This document shows, one piece after another, positions 55,435 to 60,070 of a DNA stretch of 64,000 bases (within the stretch, counting starts at the first letter, position 1; each line of letters begins with the position of its first letter). This DNA comes from Desulfosporosinus youngiae DSM 17734. Its GTDB lineage: Bacteria; Bacillota; Desulfitobacteriia; Desulfitobacteriales; Desulfitobacteriaceae. The DNA is taken from positions 248,001 through 312,000 of the forward strand of contig NZ_CM001441.1 in the NCBI RefSeq assembly GCF_000244895.1, written 5' to 3'. The position numbers and the translations under genes were made by a program. Under the pieces are notes generated by a model. It did not search any database. It saw only the letters and a list, made by a program, of their open reading frames with translations, and was not told the origin of the DNA.

Positions 55435-56643
55435 ATGAAAAAAGTTGTATTAGCTTATTCTGGTGGGTTAGACACCTCCATTATTATACCTTGGCTTAAA
55501 GAGACTTATGGGTACGAAGTTATTGCTATGGCGGCAGATCTCGGTCAAGGGGAAGAGTTGGCTCCTCTTCAGGAAAAAGCAATTAAAAGTGGTGCGAGCA
55601 AACTGTATATTGAGGATCTGAGAGAAGAATTCCTCACAGAATTTATTTTTCCAACCCTTAAGGCTGGGGCAGTTTATGAAGGTAGCTACCTTTTGGGCAC
55701 CTCCTTTGCTCGTCCATTGATTGCTCGTCGTCTAGTGGAAATTGCGGAGAAGGAAGGTGCGGTTGCGGTCGCACACGGCGCAACTGGTAAAGGAAATGAC
55801 CAAGTCCGATTTGAGCTAAGTGTCAAAGCATTAAATCCAGACTTGGAGATCATAGCACCTTGGCGGATTTGGGATCTTAAGTCCCGAGAAGATTGTATTG
55901 ACTATGCTCAAGCTCGTGGAATTCCTGTACCTGTCACCAAGGATCGTCCTTACAGCATGGACCGTAACCTTTGGCACTTAAGTCATGAAGGCGGAGACCT
56001 GGAAAATCCCTGGAACGAACCAAAAAATGATTTATATTTACTCGGTGTTTCTCCCGAGGATGCACCAGATGAAGCAACCTACATCGAACTTGGATTTGAA
56101 CAAGGGGTTCCTACATCGTTGAATGGTCAGAAAATTCCTCCTGTCGCTTTATTGGAAACGCTCAATGAATTAGGTGGAAAAAACGGGGTCGGGATTGTGG
56201 ATATGGTTGAAAACCGACTTGTAGGGATGAAATCACGTGGGGTCTATGAGACACCTGGGGGAACAATTCTCTATATAGCTCACCAAGCCTTAGATCGTCT
56301 TACCCTTGACCGCTTAACCTTACATTACAAAGAACAAATTGCTTTAAAGTATGCTGAAATTGTCTATGATGGAACATGGTATACTCCGTTGCGGGAAGCC
56401 TTAGATGCCTTTGTTAATGTGACTCAGAAAAACGCTACCGGTACGGTTCGGGTGAAATTGTATAAAGGAAATTGTACTTTAGCAGGCGTAAAATCCCCGT
56501 ATTCTCTCTATAATGAAGCATATGCCACCTTTGGTGACGATGGTGTGTATAATCAAAAGGATGCCAGTGGATTTATTAATCTTTTCGGTTTGCCTCTCAA
56601 AGTAAGAGCTTTAATGGAGAAAGAATCAGGGCTGCGTAAATAA
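55435..56643 (+). CDS. argG: Argininosuccinate synthase
   Basis: ATP-dependent condensation of citrulline and aspartate. The 402-residue protein has the PP-loop [20 protein letters not shown], substrate segments [16 protein letters not shown] and [20 protein letters not shown], and [23 protein letters not shown] 55435 follows AAGAGGGAGATTAGAC. It is separated from argH by 59 bases that contain a terminator-like hairpin. Confidence 0.97.
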
Positions 56644-56655
56644 GAGTAAAGAGTG

Positions 56656-56679
56656 GCGCCGGCAACCCGGCGCTTTCTT
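56656..56679 (+). terminator. Hairpin between argG and argH
   Basis: GCGCCGG (56656-56662) pairs with CCGGCGC (56667-56673) around CAAC, followed by TTTCTT. The stem is strongly GC-rich, and the argH ribosome binding site follows at 56688. It looks like a leaky terminator or attenuator that lowers argH relative to argG. Confidence 0.6.
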
Positions 56680-56702
56680 AATTAATGAAAGGGAGATGTA
56701 AC

Positions 56703-58085
56703 GTGAAGCTTTGGGGCGGACGTTTTGAAAAAAGTACCGAGGGGTTGGTCGAAGATTTCCATTCCTCAATCCGATTTGATCAACGCCTGTATAAACAGGA
56801 TATTCAAGGGAGTATTGCTCATGCTAGAATGCTCGGTAGTGTTGGAGTGATCTCTGAGTCGGAAGCCAGCCATTTGATTCAGGGATTATCTGAGATCCTT
56901 GGAGATATTCAAGCAGGAAAGATAGAATTTGAGATCGGTGCAGAAGACATTCACATGAATATTGAGAAGCTTTTAACTGAGCGGATCGGACCTGTGGGGA
57001 AAAAACTGCATACTGGACGCAGCCGAAATGACCAGGTCGCCTTAGATCTAAGACTCTTTTTGAAAAATGAGATTGACCAAACCAAGTCCTTAGTGGACCA
57101 GCTTATTCAAACCCTTCTACATTTGGCCGAAGGGCATCTGGAAACATGGATGCCAGGCTATACGCATTTGCAAAAGGCACAGCCAATTACGCTGGCCCAT
57201 CATCTAATGGCCTACGTGCAAATGTTTTTACGTGATCTTGGCCGGCTTAAGGATACACGAAAACGATTAAATATTTCTCCCCTTGGTTCTGGAGCTATGG
57301 CCGGAACGACATTTCCCCTTGACCGGGAGCAAGTGGCTAGGGAACTCGGCTTAGATGGAGTTACCTTAAACAGCTTAGATGGGGTAAGTGATCGGGATTT
57401 TGCCCTGGAATTCTTAGCAAACGCATCCATTCTCATGATGCATTTAAGCCGATTATGCGAGGAACTCGTTCTTTGGTCCAGCGGTGAATTTCAGTTTATC
57501 TCAATGGATGATGGGTATTCAACTGGTTCCAGTATTATGCCTCAAAAGAAGAACCCTGATGTGGCAGAATTAGTAAGGGGAAAAACCGGGCGCGTGTATG
57601 GTGACTTGGTGGGTCTATTAACCGTCATGAAAGGACTTCCTCTCGCTTATAACAAAGATATGCAAGAGGATAAAGAACAGGTCTTTGATGCAGTGGATAC
57701 GATTCAAAAGTGTTTGTTGGTTGTAGAACCAATGTTAAGAACTATGCAGGTGCATCGGGATGTCATGGCGTTTGGGGCAAAAGGTGGATTTACCAATGCT
57801 ACAGATTTGGCGGATTACTTGGCCAAGAAAGGGGTCCCCTTCAGAGAGGCGCATGAATTAGTGGGACGTATCGTTTTACAGTGCAGCAAAAAAGGCATTG
57901 GATTAGAAGATATGAGTTTAGTTGAGTATCAGGAAGTTTCCCCAATATTTGGAGATGACCTGTTTAAATCGATTGGGATTCAATACTGTGTTCAAGCGCG
58001 AAAGATAACAGGAGGTCCCTCTCCGGAAACGGTTGCTGCGGCAATCAAGCTTAGCCGTAACGCTCTGAAAAAGATACTTTGGTAG
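56703..58085 (+). CDS. argH: Argininosuccinate lyase
   Basis: Splits argininosuccinate into arginine and fumarate, last step of the route. GTG 56703, 7 bases after AAAGGGAG, gives 460 residues (MKLWGGRFEKSTEGLVEDFH). An in-frame ATG at 56685 precedes the ribosome binding site and is rejected. Signature motif: GSSIMPQKKNPDVAELVRGK. Other segments are KLHTGRSRNDQVALDLRLFL and PGYTHLQKAQPITLAHHLMA. The gene is followed by 530 bases without a gene. Confidence 0.97.
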   Translation: MKLWGGRFEKSTEGLVEDFHSSIRFDQRLYKQDIQGSIAHARMLGSVGVISESEASHLIQGLSEILGDIQAGKIEFEIGAEDIHMNIEKLLTERIGPVGKKLHTGRSRNDQVALDLRLFLKNEIDQTKSLVDQLIQTLLHLAEGHLETWMPGYTHLQKAQPITLAHHLMAYVQMFLRDLGRLKDTRKRLNISPLGSGAMAGTTFPLDREQVARELGLDGVTLNSLDGVSDRDFALEFLANASILMMHLSRLCEELVLWSSGEFQFISMDDGYSTGSSIMPQKKNPDVAELVRGKTGRVYGDLVGLLTVMKGLPLAYNKDMQEDKEQVFDAVDTIQKCLLVVEPMLRTMQVHRDVMAFGAKGGFTNATDLADYLAKKGVPFREAHELVGRIVLQCSKKGIGLEDMSLVEYQEVSPIFGDDLFKSIGIQYCVQARKITGGPSPETVAAAIKLSRNALKKILW

Positions 58086-58292
58086 AACTAGAAAGTGGAG
58101 GATAAAATACTCTCATTGATTTGATTTTGTCGAATAAATGTGCGTGGATGTCGTCTTTAGAGGATATGAATGGAAAAGGGAGTTTAACTTGGAATTGTGT
58201 ATTTAAAAAGGGTATTGATACCTGTACACAAGTTTCTAGGAAAGGTTGTACCCTGTCTCATTAAGGGTGTATGACCTTAGTTTGCAACAGAA

Positions 58293-58410
58293 TGTGAACA
58301 AGAGCTGTGCATAGTGTGGATAAATCTGTGGATAAAGTCTAAATAGGTCGTATTGTAAGGTGGATAAGCTTAGGCTGAATGGTGGACAATCATAACAAAC
58401 CTGTGGATAA
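58293..58410 (+). other. Cluster of DnaA-box-like 9-mers
   Basis: Within 118 bases there are three perfect TGTGGATAA (58315-58323, 58327-58335, 58402-58410), the complement of TTATCCACA. Four near matches lie in the same orientation: TGTGAACAA (58293), TGTGCATAG (58306), GGTGGATAA (58359) and GGTGGACAA (58381). Two boxes abut. The site is intergenic, with no dnaA, dnaN or rpmH in the window, so it is not the usual oriC. It resembles DnaA-titration or DnaA-box-cluster sites known elsewhere; the function here is inferred. Confidence 0.7.
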
Positions 58411-58446
58411 TTTTTCTTTCTTTGTCGTGAAAATTTAACATTATCA

Positions 58447-58492
58447 CTCAAAAAGCCTAAAGGAATGCCTTTAGGTTTTTTATTTTGAGTCT
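58447..58492. terminator. Bidirectional terminator after argH
   Basis: CCTAAAGG (58456-58463) pairs with CCTTTAGG (58468-58475) around AATG, extended by ACTCAAAAAG on the left and TTTTTTATTTTGAGT on the right. A strong intrinsic terminator on the plus strand, 360 bases after argH, placed after the DnaA-box cluster. Confidence 0.88.
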
Positions 58493-58615
58493 AAAGCAGG
58501 AAAATCCTGCATAGGGGTCGAAATTCTCACGCATGATTTTATAAAAGATATAACATCCTATAGTTACATTCAAAATGGAACTGCGCAGTGATCATACTAA
58601 AGCGAGGCATAATTA

Positions 58616-60070
58616 ATGGAAAATCGAACAATGCTAACGGATCTATATCAGCTAACCATGATGCAGGGTTATTTAGTAAACGGTTATCAAAATAAGGAAG
58701 CGGTATTCGATGTTTACTTTCGATCGTTACCATTTGAGGGAGGATATGCTCTGGCGGCAGGGCTTGAACAAGTTGTCGAATACATTGAAAACCTTACCTT
58801 TGAGGAAGAGGATTTGACGTATTTGCGAAGCCTTAACCTATTTAATGACGAGTTCATTGAGGAATTAAGTAACTTCCATTTCACGGGAGACATTGATGCG
58901 ATTCCGGAAGGGACAGCAGTCTTTCCGTATGAACCTTTGATCCGAGTAAAAGGACGTATTTTTGAAACACAGCTTCTGGAGACGACGATACTTAACTTGG
59001 TTAATTTTGAGACTCTTATAGCAACTAAAGCGTCTCGTGTCGTTACAGCCGCCAACGGGGGCCCGGTCATGGAGTTTGGATTACGAAGAGCGCAAGGACC
59101 GGACGCCGGGATCTTAGGAGCCCGGGCAGCCTTTATAGGAGGATGTCGATCAACCTCCAACGTTTTAGCGGGAAAGCGTTACGGCATCCCCGTGTCAGGA
59201 ACTCAGGCACATAGTTGGATTCAATGCTTTCCAACAGAACTGGAAGCCTTTCGGGCCTATGCCCATACGTTTCCGGATCTCTGCTTGCTGCTGGTAGATA
59301 CTTATAATGTCCTCGAATCAGGAGTGCCTAACGCGATTAAAGTTGGGCTTGAGCTGGAAGCAGAGGGACATCATTTCTTAGGAATTCGGCTGGATAGTGG
59401 TGACTTAACGTATTTGTCAAAGGAAGCCCGCCGTATGTTGGATGAAGCAGGTCTTAAGGAGGCCATCATCGTGGCTTCCAACGATTTAGATGAGGAAACT
59501 ATCTTTGCCATTCGAGCTCAAGGGGCAAGGATTGATACCTGGGGTGTCGGCACCCATCTTATTACATCTAAGGATAATCCATCTCTGGGAGGGGTTTATA
59601 AGCTGGCGGCTGAAGGTGAGCAGGGAATTTTTCATCCTAAATTGAAGGTCTCAGAAAACATTTCCAAGATCACGAATCCTGGAATTAAAAAAGTTGTGCG
59701 TTTTTACGACAGAGCGGGGAAAGCTATGGCGGATCTCATTGCTCTGGACGATGAGGTCTTTGATGAGAGTAAACCTCTGACTATTTTTGATCCGATTCAA
59801 ACTTGGAAAAGAAAGACCTTAACGAATTTCAAGACGAGGGAACTCTTAACTCCTGTGTTTAGGGGCGGAAAACGAGTGTATGACTTACCGAAGCTTAAAG
59901 AAATCCAAACCTACGCACAAAAGGAACTAGACACTTTCTGGGATGAAGTGAAGCGATTGACAAATCCGCACCGGTATATCGTCGATTTATCGAATAATCT
60001 CTTTGGCCTAAAACAACAATTACTTTTGACGATTCACAATGATATAAAAGCTAAACAAGGAGTGGAGTAA
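58616..60070 (+). CDS. pncB: Nicotinate phosphoribosyltransferase
   Basis: Salvages nicotinate to nicotinate mononucleotide using PRPP and ATP. The 484-residue protein starts MENRTMLTDLYQLTMMQGYL. Family motifs are EFGLRRAQGPDAGILGARAA, FIGGCRSTSNVLAGKRYGIP, SGTQAHSWIQCF and RLDSGDLTYLSKEARRMLDE, with GVGTHLITSKDNPSLGGVYK downstream. The ribosome binding site is weak (AAAGCGAGGC). First gene of a three-gene unit with nadE (2-base gap) and a HAD nucleotidase. Confidence 0.95.
   Translation: MENRTMLTDLYQLTMMQGYLVNGYQNKEAVFDVYFRSLPFEGGYALAAGLEQVVEYIENLTFEEEDLTYLRSLNLFNDEFIEELSNFHFTGDIDAIPEGTAVFPYEPLIRVKGRIFETQLLETTILNLVNFETLIATKASRVVTAANGGPVMEFGLRRAQGPDAGILGARAAFIGGCRSTSNVLAGKRYGIPVSGTQAHSWIQCFPTELEAFRAYAHTFPDLCLLLVDTYNVLESGVPNAIKVGLELEAEGHHFLGIRLDSGDLTYLSKEARRMLDEAGLKEAIIVASNDLDEETIFAIRAQGARIDTWGVGTHLITSKDNPSLGGVYKLAAEGEQGIFHPKLKVSENISKITNPGIKKVVRFYDRAGKAMADLIALDDEVFDESKPLTIFDPIQTWKRKTLTNFKTRELLTPVFRGGKRVYDLPKLKEIQTYAQKELDTFWDEVKRLTNPHRYIVDLSNNLFGLKQQLLLTIHNDIKAKQGVE

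Follow-up and report, generated by a model that had tools for sequence, protein, structure and literature searches.

Clusters of DnaA boxes lying outside the replication origin, oriC, are known from both Escherichia coli and Bacillus subtilis. The E. coli loci DARS1 and DARS2 are short, ordered sets of such boxes, which are not all in one orientation. In the accessible parts of two reviews, the DARS loci are described as reactivating ADP-DnaA (PMC13220808), and datA as requiring IHF and promoting ATP hydrolysis (PMC5295017, PMC13220808). The available text of the latter review states that B. subtilis has no Hda, SeqA, IHF, datA or DARS, and calls other ways of balancing ATP-DnaA against ADP-DnaA unknown (PMC13220808). 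What B. subtilis does possess are DnaA-box clusters (DBCs): joint deletion of six of them leads to early initiation, which one re-inserted cluster partly relieves, a role that both reviews, in the same accessible parts, base on a single study (PMC5295017, PMC13220808). Among the B. subtilis DnaA regions tabulated in PMC4447404 is one labelled 'downstream of gcp; downstream of ydiF', which has 10 sites and binds ATP-DnaA with an apparent Kd of 0.15 uM; the same paper gives a 16-fold better recovery of the gcp region with ATP-DnaA than with ADP-DnaA at low concentration in vitro, and repression or activation of some adjacent genes by DnaA.

Here we describe a DnaA-box cluster in the argH-pncB gap of Desulfosporosinus youngiae DSM 17734, within a window of 64,000 nucleotides (the whole stretch of DNA that was analysed), which covers positions 248001-312000 of the contig. 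A preliminary description of the window had noted seven DnaA-box-like 9-mers at 58293-58410, all in one orientation, three of them perfect and two directly abutting, with neither dnaA nor dnaN nearby. Direct reading of the sequence bears this out (Table 1), the abutting copies being those at 58306-58314 and 58315-58323, and both dnaA and dnaN are found 306 kb from the cluster (10.8% of the arm), where the contig begins. Since the copy at 58293 is not kept in relatives, we take the conserved element to be the remaining six boxes, which span 105 bp with a box score of 10. The cluster is non-coding, lying between the argH stop at 58085 and the pncB start at 58616, and an Rfam search of 56000-60000 returned no match up to E = 1. 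Its perfect boxes are identical in sequence to the perfect boxes of the genome's own oriC.

Table 1. Features of the argH-pncB region, in window coordinates; bits are information content over a set of 24 sequences
Feature	Position	Strand	Remarks
argH, argininosuccinate lyase	56685-58085	+	gene preceding the cluster
seventh copy, TGTGAACAA	58293-58301	+	2 mismatches; unconserved, probably outside the element
conserved six-box DnaA-box cluster	58306-58410	+	every box reads TGTGGATAA-type on the + strand
box, TGTGCATAG	58306-58314	+	2 mismatches; relatives mostly TGTG(C/T)A(T/C)A(A/G); 1.71 bits
perfect box, TGTGGATAA	58315-58323	+	1.89 bits
perfect box, TGTGGATAA	58327-58335	+	3 nt after the preceding box; 1.93 bits
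box, GGTGGATAA	58359-58367	+	1 mismatch; in relatives base 1 free, others nearly fixed; 1.77 bits
weak fifth box, GGTGGACAA	58381-58389	+	2 mismatches; varies among relatives, often GGGGATAA
perfect box, TGTGGATAA	58402-58410	+	1.97 bits
intrinsic-terminator-like hairpin, 14 pairs	58450-58481	+	between cluster and pncB; terminator-like on the opposite strand too
pncB, nicotinate phosphoribosyltransferase	58616-60070	+	downstream neighbour here; no constant partner of the cluster

Taken over its full length, the window shows no enrichment in such boxes, with 19 matches at up to one mismatch against a shuffle mean of 16.7 (sd 3.9), and the excess is therefore local. The genome, a single contig of 5,660,978 bases, holds 83 perfect boxes in total, so that three within 96 bp are far from expectation. 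The perfect TGTGGATAA-N3-TGTGGATAA arrangement at 58315-58335, a pair spaced by 12 bp, occurs nowhere else in the genome; when one or two mismatches are tolerated, the pair is also found at a tsaD site at 605 kb, in oriC, at 5,524 kb and at two phage-like sites. Allowing up to three mismatches gives 19 matches, many of which look like chance given seven for the reversed pattern, and for this reason pairs were used at up to two mismatches only. The boxes show a helical phasing of R = 0.82, a value equalled or bettered by 820 of 20,000 random placements and too weak to claim; the same holds for the tsaD cluster (R = 0.53; 2,112 of 20,000). By a hand count with the arms split at 2.83 Mb, the leading strand carries 66 of the 83 perfect boxes in the TGTGGATAA sense, a bias partly expected from coding and GC skew.

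Absence from all close relatives had been set beforehand as one outcome that would refute the preliminary reading, and the cluster is kept behind argH in all 28 of the Desulfosporosinus genomes examined (29 were searched). In three of these it lies 780-913 nt behind the gene, beyond the 600-nt limit used for scoring. Across the order, it is found at 56 of 67 argH loci, representing 54 of 65 genomes; at the threshold adopted, a 200-nt box score of at least 4 within 600 nt behind argH, 53 of the 67 loci score, against 1 of 1,340 dinucleotide shuffles. L144/L146 and L145/L147 each stem from a single genome and were counted once, and eight of 73 order genomes were dropped for want of a usable argH 3' end (G025, G035, G043, G052, G055, G057, G060 and G066). 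The 11 genomes lacking the cluster behind argH are those of L151, L155, L157, L172 (418 nt only) and L174-L180. The six argH loci read from a different family of the class likewise all lack it, a seventh genome's broken argH having been left out; within a search confined to the class, the cluster occurs in two families of one order.

The boxes are more constant than the spacers and flanks around them. In a set of 24 sequences (the window, L001-L022 and L025, including L008, a MAG without a genus name), information content is about 1.6-2.0 bits in boxes, 0.88 in spacers and 0.62 in flanks, the difference between boxes and spacers having a Mann-Whitney p of 6e-14 with the fifth box set one base off in the computation. 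That box carries about 1.6 bits when taken from the column values at 58381-58389, and 1.42 bits as measured one base to the left (58380-58388). The spacing of the five strong boxes, at -9, 0, +12, +44 and +87, is constant within 2 bp in genus loci; the +44 box is unmatched in L015 and L018, and the weak +66 box fits the search pattern in only one of 30 loci. The argH-side cluster is under clear purifying selection in a lineage distant from B. subtilis. One genus of the family has a further three-box cluster 7-8 kb past that at argH (L237 1228-1290 in G030; G031:C62:333743-333804).

Scanning the genome for box clusters, as the preliminary description had proposed, brought out further examples at tsaD (605 kb) and on the comFC side (5,524 kb). 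The former, 3' of tsaD (gcp), is denser than the argH cluster (604,990-605,120; L082 1490-1660, at about 604,990-605,160 in the genome), and has a core resembling it, TGTGGACAA, TGTGGATAA, GTC and TGTAGATAA in succession; NCBIfam names the family of the tsaD product gcp/TsaD. Of 29 tsaD loci, our own genome counted, 23 have two or more perfect boxes within 800 nt, and in an even sample of the phylum 35 of 58 loci reach a cluster score of at least 6, compared with none of 1,160 shuffles; this count leaves out three of 61 phylum genomes (G000, G015 and G109, the last a partial match). The third cluster is weaker (L190 2269-2341, about 5,524,270-5,524,340), is located across oriC, at 137 kb from it, and follows a phosphoribosyltransferase-domain gene (comFC-like) and a treble-clef zinc-ribbon gene; it recurs in G007, G009 and G024 (loci L231, L232 and L223), in G024 without a zinc-ribbon match.

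Close same-strand box pairs are found in 47 of 49 genomes of the class, the reversed pattern giving one match in each of two genomes. Among the 12 one-contig chromosomes there are 46 pairs, which when sorted by hand fall at argH (15, in seven genomes), tsaD (15, in 11 genomes), the comFC-like gene (three), oriC (two) and elsewhere (11), so that the first four sites account for 35 of the 46. Two pairs in our own genome were set aside, one at 1,260 kb and one at 5,396 kb, the latter being among the 11 elsewhere: by eye they lie among phage-like genes, and they resemble each other. A short segment bearing boxes (TGTGGATAA ... TGTTAGTTAAATGTGAATAAAGG) is common to two phage-like regions (L188 2400-2440 and L189 2578-2620), perhaps reflecting DnaA-related control in prophages. 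Separately, three imperfect boxes, TTGTCCACA, CTATCCACA and TGTGTATAA, at L191 2100-2131 (genome about 83,100), stand directly upstream of a short frame, and this frame resembles a sigma-factor region by eye.

Compared with the known systems, the argH cluster is closest in kind to the B. subtilis DBCs, sharing with gcp/ydiF the presence of several boxes, densely packed and intergenic, outside oriC; moreover, its sister cluster 3' of tsaD occupies the very gcp position given in the accessible part of PMC4447404. It differs in that all its boxes are in one orientation, and in that a site following argH is not among the 17 of the top 20 B. subtilis DnaA regions that could be compared from the same partial source (PMC4447404). 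With datA it has in common a non-coding DnaA-box cluster away from oriC and a possible role in negative control, and with DARS1 and DARS2 a short ordered set of boxes outside oriC; the marks of those systems are the IHF-dependent ATP hydrolysis of the one and, in the others, the reactivation of ADP-DnaA and boxes of mixed orientation. In the literature searched, by titles and abstract openings, no account of an argH-side cluster or of tsaD-linked conservation was found; the kind of element is already known, while the argH position and its conservation did not appear there and are new in that sense.

The oriC of this genome is marked by dnaA, dnaN, flanking boxes and a trio-like run at the contig start. 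In the dnaA-dnaN gap (L081 2008-2065) a box is followed by ACTACTACAACTACTATC, a DnaA-trio-like run, and the origin therefore looks bipartite, as in B. subtilis. The argH cluster has the same box consensus and a 12-bp-spaced pair in common with oriC (at 444-464 in the latter, with two mismatches), but has no dnaA or dnaN adjoining it. Of the 12 one-contig chromosomes, 11 have dnaA no more than 700 bases from the contig start, the other, G030, having it at 503 kb. In order of increasing distance from dnaA, the cluster is found at 275 kb (G003), 278 kb (G007), 306 kb (G000), 358 kb (G036), 454 kb (G024), 519 kb (G030), 538 kb (G009), 558 kb (G019), 607 kb (G034), 694 kb (G033), 854 kb (G026) and, by the shorter route, about 1.23 Mb (G021). 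Expressed as fractions worked out by hand, this places it at 9-38% of the replichore in 11 chromosomes and at about 80% in G021; the argH cluster thus usually, though not always, sits no more than two fifths of the way along an arm. In G021 (one contig) the tsaD cluster is also far out, at about 94% of the arm, unlike in G019 and G026 of the same genus, reflecting either a rearrangement or an assembly error.

The preliminary description had left the choice between a replication-control site and a link between replication and NAD supply, in which DnaA at the cluster would control transcription of pncB and nadE. We consider the second unlikely, despite several points that speak for it: the cluster is 206-310 bp upstream of the pncB start in this genome, B. 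subtilis DnaA does affect some neighbouring genes (PMC4447404, from the part available), and pncB or nadE stands behind argH in 45 of 54 cluster-bearing genomes (pncB in 36, nadE only in nine) versus two of 11 without the cluster. Much of this association, however, is accounted for by common descent of the argH-pncB-nadE-NT5C neighbourhood. The cluster was said to lie between argH and pncB, and in relatives the argH side of that statement stands (54 of 65 genomes) while pncB is missing from the 1.5-2.6 kb read behind argH in 18 of these 54; the next gene there is nadE in nine, an NT5C-like gene without nadE in six and neither in three, in two of which a PP2C-like protein follows (its family checked in one case). 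Neither NAD gene is therefore present in the DNA read behind the cluster in nine of the 54. Approached from pncB, 29 of 80 loci carry the cluster, made up of 26 of the 28 with argH upstream and three of the 52 with no argH in the DNA read, which leaves it absent from two of the former and 49 of the latter. For the three cluster-bearing loci without argH (L015, L018 and L026) only 399-733 nt upstream were read, and 33 of the 49 cluster-less ones were read over at least 3.9 kb. Nor is there a steady distance from the last box to pncB, which ranges from 53 to 340 bp, and a terminator intervenes in the window; terminator-like sites do so in 12 of 30 loci, so this argument is valid for the window but not for all relatives. 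We read the cluster as probably belonging to the argH neighbourhood rather than to pncB: the NAD link is weakened, and replication control gains by inference from the conserved boxes and spacing, the several clusters per genome and the tsaD site. The closest relatives of this pncB are from Desulfosporosinus. About 100 bp upstream of it, at 58516-58536, is a 21-mer, GGTCGAAATTCTCACGCATGA. Tested against 29 cluster-bearing pncB loci, it recurs with at most three mismatches in 22; it is unique in the genome at up to three mismatches, and is perhaps a pncB promoter or operator.

The most interesting rival is a datA- or DARS-like action, whereby an ordered DnaA assembly would alter the nucleotide state of DnaA through hydrolysis or exchange. 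The conservation of box order and spacing, beyond mere box number, and the 16-fold preference for ATP-DnaA at the B. subtilis gcp region in vitro (PMC4447404, in its accessible part) are consistent with it, and a possible DnaA regulator is encoded in this genome. This is a 322-aa DnaA-like protein (L306 1649-2617, about 3,246,150-3,247,120), 25% identical to DnaA, with a DnaA AAA+ domain and the DnaA C-terminal helix-turn-helix, but nothing matching the N-terminal part and a score that falls short of the DnaA cut-off; a comparable protein is the second-best DnaA match in all 12 chromosomes, 11 besides this one, the match being partial in G024 and interrupted by an internal stop in G030, G021 and G019. 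We nevertheless think a datA- or DARS-like action improbable, given that datA acts with IHF and that the available text of PMC13220808 states IHF, datA and DARS to be absent from B. subtilis. The same short protein keeps a DnaA-type helix-turn-helix and might read related sites, but that the 9-mers serve a different protein sharing the DnaA-box consensus seems most improbable when the genome's own oriC has perfect boxes of that consensus together with the 12-bp pair bearing two mismatches. An effect on argH or its 3' end, with DnaA as a roadblock or as an antisense regulator of the arg operon, would fit the position after argH in all 28 genus genomes; it is very unlikely, since the distance from the end of the argH match to the first box varies from 11 to 913 bp, argH occurs without the cluster in 11 of 65 genomes, and in L026 the cluster precedes pncB and the 733 nt read contain no argH. 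Dense boxes and an AT-rich stretch to the right of the last box could also suggest a cryptic or secondary origin. This we regard as barely credible: dnaA and dnaN, with flanking boxes and the trio-like run, are at the contig start, and a trio scan of the cluster finds three of eight triplets, as do 66 of 263 background tiles, although the scan is a weak one, its control in the dnaA-dnaN gap reaching only four (seven of 263 tiles).

Our preferred reading is that the argH cluster is probably a DnaA-box cluster outside oriC, comparable in kind to those of B. subtilis and specific to its own lineage, and that it would hold DnaA and restrain initiation jointly with other clusters. Because it is far from the origin and kept in Desulfosporosinus and many of its relatives, a role as sink or brake for DnaA is more likely than one as switch for the neighbouring vitamin gene. 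Some observations sit less easily with such a role: the distance from oriC is loose (9-38% of the replichore, and about 80% in G021), 11 of the 65 order genomes and the six argH loci of another family lack the cluster, and the NAD genes in 45 of 54 cluster-bearing genomes, versus two of 11 genomes without it, are what a pncB-nadE switch would predict as well. As a mechanism, DnaA would bind the six same-orientation boxes cooperatively, beginning at the abutting and 3-nt-spaced core; DnaA held by the argH, tsaD and comFC-side clusters would leave less of it free, and initiation at oriC would be restrained. The copy number of the cluster would double early in replication.

More tentatively, and with considerable doubt, the Bacillota might possess a deep, position-conserved system of DnaA-holding landmarks, consisting of an ancestral tsaD cluster common to Bacillus and Desulfosporosinus and of lineage-specific ones at argH and on the comFC side. 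These would share an ordered core as the assembly unit that sets initiation timing, perhaps partnered by the short DnaA-like AAA+/helix-turn-helix protein, and would make up a Gram-positive counterpart of datA and DARS. The recurrence of the tsaD cluster across the phylum sample may prove a more valuable result than the argH cluster itself. Together, the selection on the argH cluster and the recurrence at tsaD suggest that evolution maintains such sites, which offer small, exact targets for deletion.
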